From assembly GCF_000282095.2 (NCBI RefSeq), contig NZ_AKKC02000016.1, positions 310,001 through 374,000 on the forward strand: a stretch of 64,000 nt of DNA. The letters are read 5' to 3'. The notes under the pieces were generated by a model, which was not told the origin of the DNA, did no database searches, and saw nothing but the letters and a program-made list of their open reading frames with translations. The stretch is from Rhizobium sp. CF080 (GTDB lineage Bacteria; Pseudomonadota; Alphaproteobacteria; Rhizobiales; Rhizobiaceae). The position numbers and the translations under genes were made by a program. Every line of letters starts with the position of its first letter. Within the stretch, counting starts at the first letter, position 1. Positions 43,958 to 48,432 of this stretch are shown one piece after another.

Positions 43958-45181
43958 TCACTCGGCGGGATTGAGCGCCACGCCACTCGGCACTGCCTGC
44001 GGCTCCGGCCTGTTCAGCAAGCCATAACCCAGCAGCATCGTTGTGAAGGCCAGCCCGCCGCCGGCGACCGCGACCCAGAAGCCGTTGGAGGCGCCGTAGG
44101 CATCGATCGTCCAGCCGGCGAGCGAGGAGCCGGCGGCGAAGCCGATGCTCATGCCGGTCATCGCATAGGTGATGCCTTCCGTGACCTGCGACGAGGGAAC
44201 GATGCGTTCGATCAGGGTCATGGCGGAAATGAAGGTCGGCGAGATCGCGGCACCGGCGAGGAAGATCACCGCCGTCAGGCCCCAGAGGCTGCCGACGAAA
44301 GGCATGGGCAGCGTGGTGACGGCGGCAACCAGGCTTGCGAAGAGCAGCCGGCGGGCGAGCGACGACTTGAACCTGATGGCGCCGAAGACGAGGCCGACCA
44401 CGAAGGAACCGGCGGCATAGGCCGACAGGATGTAGGTGGCGGCGCCCTTGTTGCCCAGCGCTTCCGAGAAGGCGACCACCGAGACTTCCGCCGTGCCGAA
44501 GATAACGCCCATGCCGGCGCAGAGCACGACCAGGAACCACATGGCCAGCCGCCGCATGACCGAACCGCCGCCTTTTACGCGATGCGGATCGACCTTCGGT
44601 TCGGTCGATTTCTGGACGACGAACAGCGTCGTGCCGACCGCTAGGAAGGCTGCCGAGGCGAGCACGCCGGCTTCCGGGAAGAGCGCGACGCTAAGGCCGA
44701 TGCCGAAGACCGGGCCGCAGATATAGACGAGCTCGTCGATGACAGATTCGAAGGCGAAGGCGGTGTGCAGTTCCGGCCGGTCGCGATAGATCTCCGACCA
44801 GCGGGCGCGCACCAGCGCCATCATGCTCGGCATCAGCCCGGCGACGAGTGCGAAGGCGAACAGCGTCCAGATCGGCCAGCGCATCCAGGCAGCAGTGGCA
44901 AGACCGATCAGAGCGAAAAAGGTGACGAACGTCGTCGGCAGCAGCACGGCCGACTGGCCCTTGGCATCCACCCAGCGCGACACCTGCGGGGAGATGAAGG
45001 CGTTGGCGAGGGCAAACGTGGCCGAGACCGCGCCGGCCAGCCAATATTCGCCATGCGTCTGGGAAAGCATAGCGACGAGGCCGATCGTCGTCATCGGCAG
45101 CGGCAGCCTCGCCACGAAAGCGGCGGCGGAAAAACCTTTCGTACCCGGCCTTGCGAATATCTCGCGATAGGGATTGGGCAT
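43958..45181 (-). CDS. MFS transporter, drug-efflux-like
   Basis: 407-aa inner-membrane major-facilitator protein with 12 hydrophobic helices. The start FSAAAFVARLPLPMTTIGLV and later RSKPTEPKVD-containing central loop fit the family. Divergent TetR-type regulator 124 bases away with a set of palindromic operators points to ligand-inducible efflux. Substrate cannot be read. ATG at 45181 is preceded by an AGGAG-like site (GAGCAGG). Confidence 0.88.
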   Translation of the reverse strand: MPNPYREIFARPGTKGFSAAAFVARLPLPMTTIGLVAMLSQTHGEYWLAGAVSATFALANAFISPQVSRWVDAKGQSAVLLPTTFVTFFALIGLATAAWMRWPIWTLFAFALVAGLMPSMMALVRARWSEIYRDRPELHTAFAFESVIDELVYICGPVFGIGLSVALFPEAGVLASAAFLAVGTTLFVVQKSTEPKVDPHRVKGGGSVMRRLAMWFLVVLCAGMGVIFGTAEVSVVAFSEALGNKGAATYILSAYAAGSFVVGLVFGAIRFKSSLARRLLFASLVAAVTTLPMPFVGSLWGLTAVIFLAGAAISPTFISAMTLIERIVPSSQVTEGITYAMTGMSIGFAAGSSLAGWTIDAYGASNGFWVAVAGGGLAFTTMLLGYGLLNRPEPQAVPSGVALNPAE

Positions 45182-45215
45182 AACCTGCTCCTTGGGTTAT
45201 CTTGAATGAGAACTT

Positions 45216-45285
45216 ACATACGCTGCGTATGTGAGCTAGATAAACGCATACATCCCGTATGTCAATTTGCATACGCAGCGTATGC
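45216..45285. promoter_or_regulatory. Three palindromic operators of the MFS/TetR divergent promoter
   Basis: Site 1, ACATACGCTGCGTATGT at 45216-45232; site 2, CATACATCCCGTATG at 45247-45261; site 3, GCATACGCAGCGTATGC at 45269-45285. All share CATACG/CGTATG arms. They fill most of the region between the two divergent starts at 45181 and 45305 and fit TetR-family operators. Confidence 0.8.
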
Positions 45286-45304
45286 GAATAATTCCGGAGT
45301 CCGC

Positions 45305-45958
45305 ATGGCTGAGAAGATGGCCGACAAGATCGTCACCAAGATGACTTCCGACACGGCCCCAAGGAGCGCCGCCAGGCCGCGCAAGGAAATGATCGCCGAA
45401 ACACGGGCGAAGCTGATCGCCGCCGCAAGGCATGCGTTTGCGCGCCAAGGTTATGCCGAAGCCTCGATGGACGATTTCACCGCCGGCGCCGGACTGACGC
45501 GCGGGGCGCTCTACCACCATTTCGGCGACAAGAAGGGCCTGCTGATGGCGGTGATCATGCAGATGGACGCGGAAATGTCCGACCGGCTCAGCGAGATTTC
45601 AGCCAGGGCGGAAAACCCCTGGCGCGGCTTCGTCGACGAATGCGTCGCCTATATCGAGATGTCGCTGGAGCCGGAAATCCAGAGGATCATGCTGCTCGAC
45701 GGCCCGGCCGTGCTCGGCGATCCGTCGCAATGGCCGAACCAGAGCGCCTGCATCCGCGCCACCACCGCAAGCCTGCAGACCCTGATCGACCAGGGCACGA
45801 TCCGCCCCATCGACGCCGAAGCCACCGCCCGCCTCGTCAACGGCGCCACCTTGAGTGCCGCACTTTGGATTGCCAGTGCGGAGGACCCGGAGGCGGTGTC
45901 GAAAAAGGCGGTGGAGGCGTTTCTGACGCTGGTTTCGGGGTTGTTGGTGGAGAGGTGA
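45305..45958 (+). CDS. TetR-family transcriptional repressor
   Basis: 217-aa regulator. N-terminal HTH (ETRAKLIAAARHAFARQGYA, EASMDDFTAGAGLTRGALYHHFGDKKGLL) matches TetR, and the C-terminal ligand-binding domain (about residues 70-215) is typical of the TetR_C_33-like group. It would bind the three palindromes at 45216-45285 and repress both itself and the MFS gene at 43958-45181. ATG at 45305 follows CCGGAG; a longer frame passes through the operators. Confidence 0.93.
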   Translation: MAEKMADKIVTKMTSDTAPRSAARPRKEMIAETRAKLIAAARHAFARQGYAEASMDDFTAGAGLTRGALYHHFGDKKGLLMAVIMQMDAEMSDRLSEISARAENPWRGFVDECVAYIEMSLEPEIQRIMLLDGPAVLGDPSQWPNQSACIRATTASLQTLIDQGTIRPIDAEATARLVNGATLSAALWIASAEDPEAVSKKAVEAFLTLVSGLLVER

Positions 45959-46217
45959 GGTGTGGGGCGGTGAGTCTGGTGTAGATCGAACAACTTCATG
46001 CTCCTTCAGACGGTCGCATGAGACCTGAATTTTGCCTCCGTCTTCGGCCCTTTGCTCTTCTCGCGCCGTACCTCAACTGAAGGCTTTGGGAACTGTGATG
46101 TGCACCAGAACCCACCGTTAGCGTGGTAATTTCGGTTTCTTCGATGGTAGCTGTAGTTACCAGTGACCGTCTTTGCCTCAAGGGTGATATCAGCGCCCGA
46201 CTCGAACCATAATGTCT

Positions 46218-47213
46218 TTAGAGCTTGATTGGCTCAAAAACGCGGCTGCCAATGAATACGTAAGGTTCTAGATCAAATGCGGACTTTAATGCCTTGTCGT
46301 CGTATACGGTCACCTTGGGATTTTTGCTAAGCGCATGCGTCACAATACCGAGCCGCCAATTTTCGTCGGCGCGCGCGTTATTCTCGTTTCTTGTCAAGAA
46401 GAAGCGTTCCACCGAGGCGGAGGTACCCTTAACCTCGACGCAGTGAACTGTGCGCCCTTTTCTAAAGAGAATGTCAAACCCCATGTTGAGATGCGCTACT
46501 CGCTCGTGGGAGAAACCCTTATCCTCGTAATATCGCTTAATCGCCTCTTCAGCCGCCATTTCGACTGCGCGGCGATGCTCTGCGGTTCCAAAGCCTGTTA
46601 GGGGGTCTCCCTCGTCGAGCTCGGGATTTGGTGCATTCGCGTCGGACGGATTATGTACCGCAATGTTCTTTAGCGAGTTCCGTCTCTCCTCAATCATTTC
46701 GAGAACCTGGTTCTTATTTGCTGTAGCGGCGACACCCGGCCCGTCTAGGAAGGAGTACTTACCCATACGCACCGAAGGGTGCGAAAAGGGGTTTGTCCGT
46801 TCCTCAGGAGGGATGAAAAACGCAGACTTACTGGTGATACAATAGGTCCAATCATAGGCTGAACCCGTCTCCGGTGCCTCAGCAAAGAAACTCTTTGGTG
46901 GCTTGTACCAACCACCCCAAAGGGTCGCATTCTCATACCAGCCAACAATGTGTACGCCATTGTATTTGGGGTTCTTAGCGAGGCAAATAACGGTCCACCC
47001 CTCGTTGTCGGCGTTTGACGGGGCATGGTCTCCTGCCTGCGGCGGAACGTAACAATAATAAACCCCGTCCGGGGAGGGCTTAAAATTGAAAGCCTCATGC
47101 CCCGGAGCCTTGTTATCTTTACCTCGGTTCTCCTTGAGCCAACGGAAGTTTCCGCCAATCAAGCCGCCACGATAGTATTCCGACCATCCGAACTTGACCC
47201 AAAGTATCTTCAT
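46218..47213 (-). CDS. PUA/EVE-like plus DUF3883 nuclease-like protein
   Basis: 331-aa protein not typical of the chromosome: lower GC (29 of 60 bases in 46921-46980) and different codon choice. The N-terminal half (residues about 1-140) has KILWVKFGWS, VYYCYVPP, GWTVICLAKNPKYNGVHIVGWYENATLWG, a pattern like EVE/PUA-type modified-base readers. The C-terminal half has GFDILF...CVEVKG (Asp247, Glu260, Lys262), a PD-(D/E)xK-type nuclease signature of DUF3883, then RFFLTRNENNARADENWRLGI. Such a fusion is expected in modification-dependent restriction or similar defence. No methyltransferase or partner is adjacent. The EVE reading is inference. Confidence 0.75.
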   Translation of the reverse strand: MKILWVKFGWSEYYRGGLIGGNFRWLKENRGKDNKAPGHEAFNFKPSPDGVYYCYVPPQAGDHAPSNADNEGWTVICLAKNPKYNGVHIVGWYENATLWGGWYKPPKSFFAEAPETGSAYDWTYCITSKSAFFIPPEERTNPFSHPSVRMGKYSFLDGPGVAATANKNQVLEMIEERRNSLKNIAVHNPSDANAPNPELDEGDPLTGFGTAEHRRAVEMAAEEAIKRYYEDKGFSHERVAHLNMGFDILFRKGRTVHCVEVKGTSASVERFFLTRNENNARADENWRLGIVTHALSKNPKVTVYDDKALKSAFDLEPYVFIGSRVFEPIKL

Positions 47214-47532
47214 TTCGCCCGAATGCTCCTGCTCACAGAATCACCACCCCTGCCGCGATCTTGCGGGTATTCCTGTGCGATCACAACTGCAGCGCTCGGG
47301 CGAGATCGTATTGTTGATGTGCAGCCAAAGCCTCGGAACACAATGGAATGGCCGCGCTTGGCGCTAAGCGGCCACCACGCCCCCACTCCCCCGCCTCACG
47401 CATGGCAGCTATTCGCAAAAGCAGGTTGTCCGGGCCCTTGCCGAACGGTCACAACGGGGTCATCACCATACGCTGCCTGATCCTCATGCGCCGGCCGGGT
47501 TTTCGGGCGGTTTCCCGAAAGAGACTGCCTTC
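47214..47532. other. Intergenic region, no gene seen
   Basis: 319 bases between the divergent DUF3883 gene and a DMT transporter gene. A GGTATTCCTGTGCGATCACAAC segment near 47268 and no strong repeat or structure were noted. It should hold both promoters and possibly one junction of the acquired segment. Confidence 0.5.
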
Positions 47533-48432
47533 ATGACCCCTCGGTCCACCGGCCTCCTCTGCGCCATCGCGGCGGTGACGATCTTTTCGATGCAGGACGG
47601 GATTTCCAAACATCTGGGCACCGCCTATCCGCCGATCTTCATCACCATGATCCGCTACTGGGCGTTCGCGGGCTTCGCATTTGCGCTGGCGGGCCGGTCT
47701 TCGGGCGGGGTGAAGGCGGCGGCGAAGGCCAACCGGCTGTGGCTGCAGATCGCCCGCGGGGCGCTGCTTGCGGTGCAGATCGTCATCTCGATCTTCTCCT
47801 TCTCGCGCGTCGGGCTTGCGGCCAGTCACACGATCTTTGCGGCGACGCCGCTGGTGGTCGCTTGTCTTTCGGTGCCGTTGCTCGGCGAAAAGGTCGGCTG
47901 GCGGCGGTGGACGGCGATCGGCGTCGGCTTCATCGGCATCCTTCTGATCATCAATCCGCTGCACGCCACCTTCGACACCAAGATCGCCATCCCGATGGTC
48001 GCGACGCTGATGTTTGCGCTCTATTCGGTGATGACCCGGCTTGCCAGCCGCACCGACACGTCCGACACCGCCTTCTTCTATACCGGCGTCGTGGGTGCCG
48101 TGACGATCACCCTCGTCGGCCCGTTCTACTGGACGCATATCACGCTTGGCGACTGGCTGTGGATGCTGGTGCTGTGCATCACCGGAATGAGCGGGCATTA
48201 CCTTTTGATCCGCGCCTTCGACCTGCTCGATGCGGTGGTCGTGCAGCCGATGTCCTATATCCAGTCGGTGCTGGTCTGCCTGATCGGCGTCTTCGTGTTC
48301 GGCGAGGTGATGACCGCCAACATGATCCTCGGCTCGGCGATCGTCATCGGCGCCGGCATTTTTACCATCTGGCGGGAGGCTCGGCTCGGCCGCGCGAGCC
48401 CACCGGCAATCGATCCGCCGGGGACGCCATAA
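47533..48432 (+). CDS. DMT-family (EamA) transporter
   Basis: 299-aa membrane protein with ten helices in two EamA halves. The start STGLLCAIAAVTIFSMQDGI and later YVLI-like ARGALLAVQIVISIFSFSRV, MRYIQS-type internal repeat (QPMSYIQSVLVCLIGVFVFGE) match the drug/metabolite transporter superfamily. Substrate unknown. ATG at 47533 follows AGAGACTGCC with a weak site. Followed by an inverted palindromic pair. Confidence 0.88.
   Translation: MTPRSTGLLCAIAAVTIFSMQDGISKHLGTAYPPIFITMIRYWAFAGFAFALAGRSSGGVKAAAKANRLWLQIARGALLAVQIVISIFSFSRVGLAASHTIFAATPLVVACLSVPLLGEKVGWRRWTAIGVGFIGILLIINPLHATFDTKIAIPMVATLMFALYSVMTRLASRTDTSDTAFFYTGVVGAVTITLVGPFYWTHITLGDWLWMLVLCITGMSGHYLLIRAFDLLDAVVVQPMSYIQSVLVCLIGVFVFGEVMTANMILGSAIVIGAGIFTIWREARLGRASPPAIDPPGTP

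Follow-up and report, generated by a model that had tools for sequence, protein, structure and literature searches.

The gene at positions 46218–47213 of the window, the 64-kb stretch of DNA analysed here, encodes a protein that is probably a single-chain, type IV-like, modification-dependent DNA endonuclease for anti-phage defence, and it is treated below as a putative enzyme of that kind. This reading was preferred because a reader fold is predicted for the N-terminal domain, the PD-(D/E)XK residues of the C-terminal domain are conserved, and the gene lies in a variable slot that carries known or candidate defence genes at three of seven sister loci. A reading of the sequence alone had proposed a type IV-like restriction factor acting alone; fold, nuclease and slot favour the first half of that proposal, but the family does not support the idea that such genes generally act alone. 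The features are located as follows.

46218..47213, minus strand: gene of 331 aa, EVE-like reader plus DUF3883 (NOV_C) nuclease; supported by the ORF call, by family relatives and by a single copy in its own genome.
46668..47213, minus strand: N-terminal EVE/YTH/PUA-like domain, residues 1–182; predicted fold (AlphaFold2, Foldseek, VIA-align), with no Pfam model.
46233..46586, minus strand: C-terminal DUF3883/NOV_C PD-(D/E)XK nuclease-like domain, about residues 210–327; Pfam PF13020 and fold matches to Hjc, NhoI/Eco15I and DpnI.
46560..46562, minus strand: Glu218 codon, conserved helix glutamate of the PD-(D/E)XK core (E in 64/64).
46473..46475, minus strand: Asp247 codon, catalytic candidate (D in 64/64).
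46434..46436, minus strand: Glu260 codon, catalytic candidate (E in 64/64).
46428..46430, minus strand: Lys262 codon, catalytic candidate (K in 64/64).
45970..47345, no strand: inserted segment with approximate limits, 52.4% GC, between TetR and DMT; DNA homology break against five filled-slot sister loci.
45206..45958, plus strand: TetR-type regulator, left border, outside the system; named by reading, beside DMT in 7 of 24 fetched sister loci.
47533..48432, plus strand: DMT/EamA-type transporter, right border, outside the system; named by reading, match in 30 of 30 genus genomes searched.

The gene is a single ORF on the minus strand with an ATG start and 331 codons. Its GC content is 52.0% compared with 62.9% for the whole window, which bears out its earlier description as a low-GC single gene. 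The neighbours were also as described, an MFS/TetR pair (MFS at 43958–45181, TetR at 45206–45958) and a DMT transporter (47533–48432), all named by reading the sequence. A chance ORF was ruled out because an alignment-based pattern scan of GTDB contigs returned 163 pattern matches, 94 of which encode relatives; 80 of these were kept. A 72-codon open stretch (46009–46224, minus strand) overlaps the 3' end of the gene and was present only in its own genome among the loci compared. The same genome also carries one ordinary EVE-domain gene with a Pfam PF01878 match (contig C9:23361–23762), unlike the window reader.

NOV_C/DUF3883 (PF13020) was the sole Pfam family recognised in the window protein, at residues 218–302 (33.3 bits against a cut-off of 22.1, E 5e-8). 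Glu218, Asp247, Glu260, Lys262 and Glu277 were invariant in all 64 full-length aligned sequences, the window protein included, and the first four of these form the D...ExK core and helix glutamate of a PD-(D/E)XK enzyme. The PD-(D/E)xK-like arrangement of Asp247, Glu260 and Lys262 proposed from the sequence alone was upheld by this conservation. Structural comparison of the whole-protein AlphaFold2 model (56 sequences, mean pLDDT 84.8) gave a consistent picture for the nuclease half. Foldseek placed Hjc first (E 5.7e-4, the sole match below 0.001), and VIA-align of residues ~210–327 returned Hjc (Z 9.9), I-Ssp6803I (9.3), SPARDA (9.1), NhoI (8.7), Eco15I (8.5) and DpnI (7.3). The PD-(D/E)XK core superimposed on Hjc with an rmsd of 2.6 over 99 residues and on NhoI with an rmsd of 3.2 over 101, and the top matches in a viral structure library were PD-(D/E)XK and resolvase models. 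Pfam score and fold matches together confirm the DUF3883 nuclease-like domain. Weak PADLOC matches near the ends of the TmtA and HmaA models, and weak NCBIfam matches to YraN far below cut-off, fit a shared PD-(D/E)XK core, which we take YraN to possess.

The N-terminal domain was modelled separately (AlphaFold2, residues 1–182, 85 sequences; pLDDT 85.4, pTM 0.84). The first 20 Foldseek matches were EVE/YTH/ASCH proteins, with E values from 0.016, the best for the domain alone, to 0.85, and unrelated proteins were mixed in from rank 21; the 20 include THYN1 with 5mC DNA, the N-terminal domain of T. gammatolerans McrB, and VcaM4I. All 50 PDB entries listed by VIA-align for these residues were EVE, YTH or ASCH proteins, where we assume the EVE label for PH1033, MJECL36, Atu2648, Q88CH6 and a Leishmania entry, and the YTH label for structure 4r3i. 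PH1033 was the best of them (Z 7.4, rmsd 3.8 over 122 residues) and VcaM4I scored 7.1. These matches point to a PUA-superfamily (EVE, YTH, ASCH) fold in the predicted model, with all reader Z scores below 8, a range that can arise from a common arrangement. With the whole-protein model, Foldseek returned THYN1 bound to DNA (E 0.009) and PH1033 (0.1), both below Hjc, and VIA-align of residues 1–187 returned PH1033 (Z 6.9) and the Mmi1 YTH domain (Z 6.6). Residues 1–182 are thus predicted to fold like EVE, YTH and ASCH domains, a conclusion supported by fold and not by sequence, in which agreement of the lists on one superfamily makes the case and single scores are modest. A fold search of residues 1–150 against EVE/PUA/YTH folds had been suggested earlier; carried out on residues 1–182, it gave a positive outcome, although for a predicted structure and with scores that are modest.

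The EVE/PUA-like module of the sequence-only reading accordingly stands as a predicted fold but is not recognisable as EVE by sequence, and EVE membership on that basis was rejected. The window protein gave no match to Pfam EVE (PF01878) at E values up to 10, and hhalign of the reader against 30 alphaproteobacterial EVE sequences gave a probability of 0.2 of 100. In that non-significant alignment the reader IVGWY falls on the EVE motif IVGIV, an overlap that is only suggestive. None of the 85 members matched the EVE, YTH or ASCH Pfam models (20 families were matched in all), and the reader profile found no EVE/YTH/ASCH entry among PDB sequences, only acetyltransferase and nanobody matches that were taken as chance.

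The W/Y-rich N-terminal pattern noticed in the sequence is real. Tyr14, Val90, Gly91, Ala96 and Arg139 were invariant in 85 members, and three further aromatics were nearly so (Trp10 in 76, Trp92 in 79, Tyr93 in 83). Invariant reader positions in the 64 full-length sequences were Tyr14, Gly16, Glu40, Asn43, Val90, Gly91, Ala96 and Arg139. Reader residues were about equally conserved in the 56 DUF3883-type members and the 29 others. In VcaM4I, according to passages of the structural report (PMC7897488), Pro24, Trp82 and Tyr130 form the main walls of the base pocket, and Gln10, Thr11, Glu15 and Trp22 contact the base. The conserved reader positions 10–16, 92–93 and 139 occur in the same chain order as these residues, so far as order along the chain can suggest a similar pocket.

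We infer that the window protein recognises a modified base, cleaves DNA, uses metal and restricts phage. In the proposed mechanism, the N-terminal EVE/YTH-fold domain would bind a modified, probably flipped, base and the DUF3883 PD-(D/E)XK domain would then cut the DNA; Glu218, Asp247 and Glu260 would coordinate a metal ion, and Lys262 would assist.

A Rhizobiaceae-level search with the window protein matched 9 of 394 genomes, its own included, and found nothing in the 7 further genomes that it listed for the genus. Plasmid records yielded 17 matches, 8 of them over at least 80% of the protein, and phage records yielded no relative of the window protein. Six loci were found in viral contigs by the alignment-based scan and none with the single protein as query. 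One of the six, L130, shares 58% identity and corresponds to the Kosakonia locus L051, with neighbours 97–99% identical; in both (L051:5141–7858 and L130:1–2718) the gene lies ~40 bp after PDC-M40B and PDC-M40C-like candidate defence genes. A DNA-level search with two relatives detected no E. coli copies at that sensitivity. By the record titles of the GTDB scan, the reader family spans several bacterial phyla.

The reader is joined to more than one nuclease. Pfam analysis of 30 members, chosen mostly for having no DUF3883, gave HNH in 11, HNH_2 in 4, NOV_C in 4, TPR_2 in 3 and, among others, one SRA and one zf-BED match; the PADLOC type IV mREase model matched 8 of the same 30. When 108 ORF entries, duplicates and pieces included, were typed by profiles built from the same sequences, 74 were assigned to DUF3883, 10 to HNH (8 of them seeds) and 2 to an EIKP type (both seeds), leaving 22 of none of these types, 16 of which are shorter than 300 aa. 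The EIKP domain has no Pfam match and is perhaps a PD-(D/E)XK-like nuclease, judged by its motif. PDB sequences searched with part of L126 returned nothing beyond chance matches. The reader is swapped between DUF3883-type and HNH-type nucleases, the modular pattern of modification-dependent restriction enzymes.

Genes for a reader with an EIKP/EVKP-motif domain were seen on rhizobial and Phaeobacter plasmids (L139:5001–6059, L140:1899–2933, L137:5995–7035); the one in L139 is ~1.7 kb from repC, and a similar match lies near repABC in L138. With the reader domain of L109 as query, two Ruminococcus phage records matched. In one locus (L142:5965–6942) the gene for a reader with a C-terminus that reads as HNH_2-like lies among tail genes, in the opposite orientation to them; a role in superinfection exclusion is possible for this phage gene. 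On a Sphingomonas plasmid (L018:4489–7377) a relative lies next to genes for a C5-methylase, Vsr and an MvaI/BcnI-type REase. Its N-terminus is longer by ~150 aa, an extension that on reading resembles the one in L006.

DNA homology between the window and five filled sister loci ends at 45939–45969, at the end of the TetR gene, and restarts at 47346–47390. Among 24 sister stretches fetched of the 29 sister genomes in the genus search, TetR, with MFS beyond it, lay beside DMT in 7, and the other 17 contained no TetR/MFS pair; the DMT match in every genome searched counts the window's own genome among the 30, and paralogues of this transporter are common. The window gene was found in none of the 24 stretches at E 1e-20. 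Two of the seven slots are empty, with 165 bp between matches (L200, L201). One holds LmuA, LmuC and LmuB of Lamassu (L187), one PDC-M49A (L186), and one a DUF5131 gene (PDC-M41B/M30B) with a weaker PDC-M30A match (L185); the remaining two (L188, L189) hold a MocR-type regulator and an EamA-type transporter, named by reading and metabolic in character. The site is therefore variable; known or candidate defence genes occupy 3 of the 7 sister slots (one Lamassu, two PDC), in a small sample with no control slots for the PADLOC match rate and with PDC models that denote candidates. The TetR–DMT slot of L185, L186 and L187 is apparently a small chromosomal defence hotspot. In a search for mobile ends around the insert, the only candidates were an 18-nt repeat (78%) and an inverted repeat of 16 nt, both attributed to chance.

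Some relatives elsewhere are associated with type III-like restriction-modification genes. In six distinct relatives (L055, L058, L059, L062, L063 and the plasmid locus L011) the reader–DUF3883 gene lies between Res and Mod, in the order Res, reader/DUF3883, Mod, small gene, UvrD, and as called here with a simple script the gene ends overlap in L055, L062, L063 and L011. Res is ~1010 aa in the operon loci, with a ResIII match in L055 and the record name 'BPTD_3080 family restriction endonuclease' in L011. Mod of L055 matches N6_N4_Mtase and the PADLOC model MTase_III (1157.7 bits); partners outside L055 were assigned by tblastn identity (51–87%). The small gene after Mod encodes 119–287 aa; L059, which represents the same gene as L002, has an additional call of 413 aa. 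The Mod frame of L011 is in two pieces. A seventh distinct relative has Mod and UvrD genes within 6 kb. The earlier description of the gene as solitary and without partners consequently applies to the window but not to the family. The survey of gene context in other genomes for methylase genes, proposed at the same time, did recover a type III-like Mod, but in just 8 of 105 family loci (7 distinct), many of them with short flanks. Among immediate neighbours of relatives, 5 of 122 matched type III methylase models, in a survey that viewed the best 25 of 219 families and had no control set.

These operons are the basis of the most serious alternative, that the protein serves a type III-like system as a mobile accessory subunit, whose reader would sense methylation of the site or of phage DNA and whose nuclease would help Res/UvrD; the window copy would then be an orphan that may be inactive or serve another system. 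The shared gene order with overlapping ends in four loci agrees with a subunit, as do three partial loci. L081, a distant Verrucomicrobia member (best segment 25% identical), comes immediately after a UvrD relative (49% identical), and part of a Mod gene is present where its contig stops; L064 has a Res gene followed by the contig end; and L054 has a Res C-terminal remnant (L054:7771–7986) directly upstream of a reader–DUF3883 gene without Mod, possibly a trace of escape from the operon. We nevertheless regard a subunit role as unlikely. Mod is scarce among family loci, and mapping the operon label onto a tree of 20 close relatives took 5 changes, a number that 230 of 500 shuffles did not exceed, as for a portable module; the tree has several long branches and does not fix the place of the window. 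Because the label fits the tree no better than shuffled labels, the reader–nuclease module seems to move in and out of the operon. Reader–HNH fusions outside such operons are also hard to explain by a subunit role.

Around the window gene itself, a search with the Res and Mod proteins of six relatives found no Res/Mod remnants. A relic of the type III operon at this site was rejected, since all matches were at the level of chance, the best of them (E 0.009) falling within the gene. Res and Mod do not occur together at the window, and its slot contains no methylase gene. A cognate methylase elsewhere in the genome was likewise rejected, the candidates being just distant N6/N4 methylases; the best match to the type III-like Mod, on another contig, was 30% identical over residues 175–410 of 963.

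A modification-dependent endonuclease remains the preferred reading, against which stand the lack of any relative of the window protein in phage records, the type III-like tie, which suits a subunit role as well, and the two metabolic sister slots. A different ligand was also considered, in which the N-terminal domain would read RNA or structured nucleic acid and the protein would cut RNA or DNA junctions. In its favour, residues 1–182 have YTH domains near the top of their fold matches, and the nuclease domain matches Hjc resolvases best of all; YTH domains of eukaryotes recognise m6A in RNA, and Hjc is a junction-cutting enzyme. Yet the reader is partnered with HNH domains and restriction-modification genes, the DNA enzymes NhoI, Eco15I and DpnI are close in the same VIA-align list, and resemblance to Hjc is common among PD-(D/E)XK restriction enzymes, which makes RNA or junction cleavage improbable. 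It is somewhat less probable still that the protein is a non-specific or cell-killing nuclease held in check for abortive infection by an N-terminal domain that merely inhibits, as VcaM4I might suggest by becoming a non-specific toxic nuclease on loss of its EVE domain and linker (passages of PMC7897488), since the N-terminal aromatic and polar residues are conserved across different fusions, which argues for a shared ligand and not for inhibition alone.

Host methylation narrows the likely targets of the putative modification-dependent endonuclease. The genome encodes a CcrM methylase (match to CcrMI in the PDB, E 2.4e-162). The CcrM site is GANTC, and the host presumably carries m6A there. 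General m6A is an unlikely target because a reader of it would attack the host's own genome. A C5-methylase search of this genome gave no match, and 10 of 14 genomes with close relatives had one; general or plain 5mC is therefore unlikely as the target of the family. No preference of carriers for genomes without a C5-methylase was seen in these 14 genomes. In the operon members, the enzyme must also leave alone whatever mark the N6/N4-type Mod makes. A phage-type modification (5hmC or a derivative), or a mark in a narrow sequence context, is a more likely target than general m6A or 5mC. This logic resembles that of BREX paired with a type IV enzyme on a plasmid (PMC8565348).

The closest known counterparts in architecture are VcaM4I-type EVE–HNH endonucleases, which, as set out in parts of PMC7897488, likewise combine an N-terminal PUA-superfamily reader, a linker helix and a C-terminal nuclease in one chain. 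The window protein differs in that its nuclease is a PD-(D/E)XK DUF3883 domain and not HNH, and its reader is not recognisable as EVE by sequence. A similar PD-(D/E)XK fold occurs in NhoI and Eco15I (Z 8.7 and 8.5), which presumably belong to the BisI family. That family needs modified cytosines (PMC11347163); the window protein has no detected BisI-type sensor and carries a different reader. Its catalytic family is shared with DUF3883/NOV_C (PF13020) restriction-type nucleases, in which, in the portions of PMC3710099 and PMC10609329 that treat it, DUF3883 occurs fused to an SNF2 helicase or as a presumed type II REase, whereas here it is fused to a reader-like domain. With type III systems the link is that Res and Mod genes flank the gene in some close relatives; the window gene itself encodes neither Res nor Mod and has no such neighbour.

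EVE–PD(D/E)XK fusions, the same general architecture class as the window protein, are known as a prediction of Bell et al. 2020 (PMC7641849), in whose main text, to which the comparison applies, many EVE domains of defence systems were found solely by sensitive methods such as HHpred, and neither DUF3883 nor NO VEIN is named. Literature naming DUF3883, seen in part, and title-level searches gave no account of a reader–DUF3883 fusion. As far as these searches show, the new elements are the reader family not recognised by sequence, its pairing with DUF3883, HNH and possibly one more nuclease, the link to type III-like operons, and the slot. Modified-base readers are a key part of modification-dependent restriction and of tools for mapping DNA modification, and a reader-like family with no Pfam model, more than one nuclease type and members in several phyla would be a source of uncharacterised specificities.

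A broader proposal is offered tentatively, as less likely than not: the reader would be a new family of modified-base readers plugged into two, perhaps three, nuclease types and also placed in type III-like operons as part of a two-layer unit. There Res and Mod would cover unmodified DNA, the type III enzyme destroying unmodified phage DNA and the reader–nuclease destroying phage DNA whose modification defeats it, and the module would repeatedly enter and leave the operon and work alone, as in the window. The operon link predicts that the target is a modification not made by the operon's own methylase.

Some copies of the gene are interrupted. Those of L065, L066, L074 and L116 are split, with no run in the stretches compared as long as the eight A at L013:8279–8286, where an Acetobacter copy is divided into two overlapping frames; phase variation could occur at this A-run.
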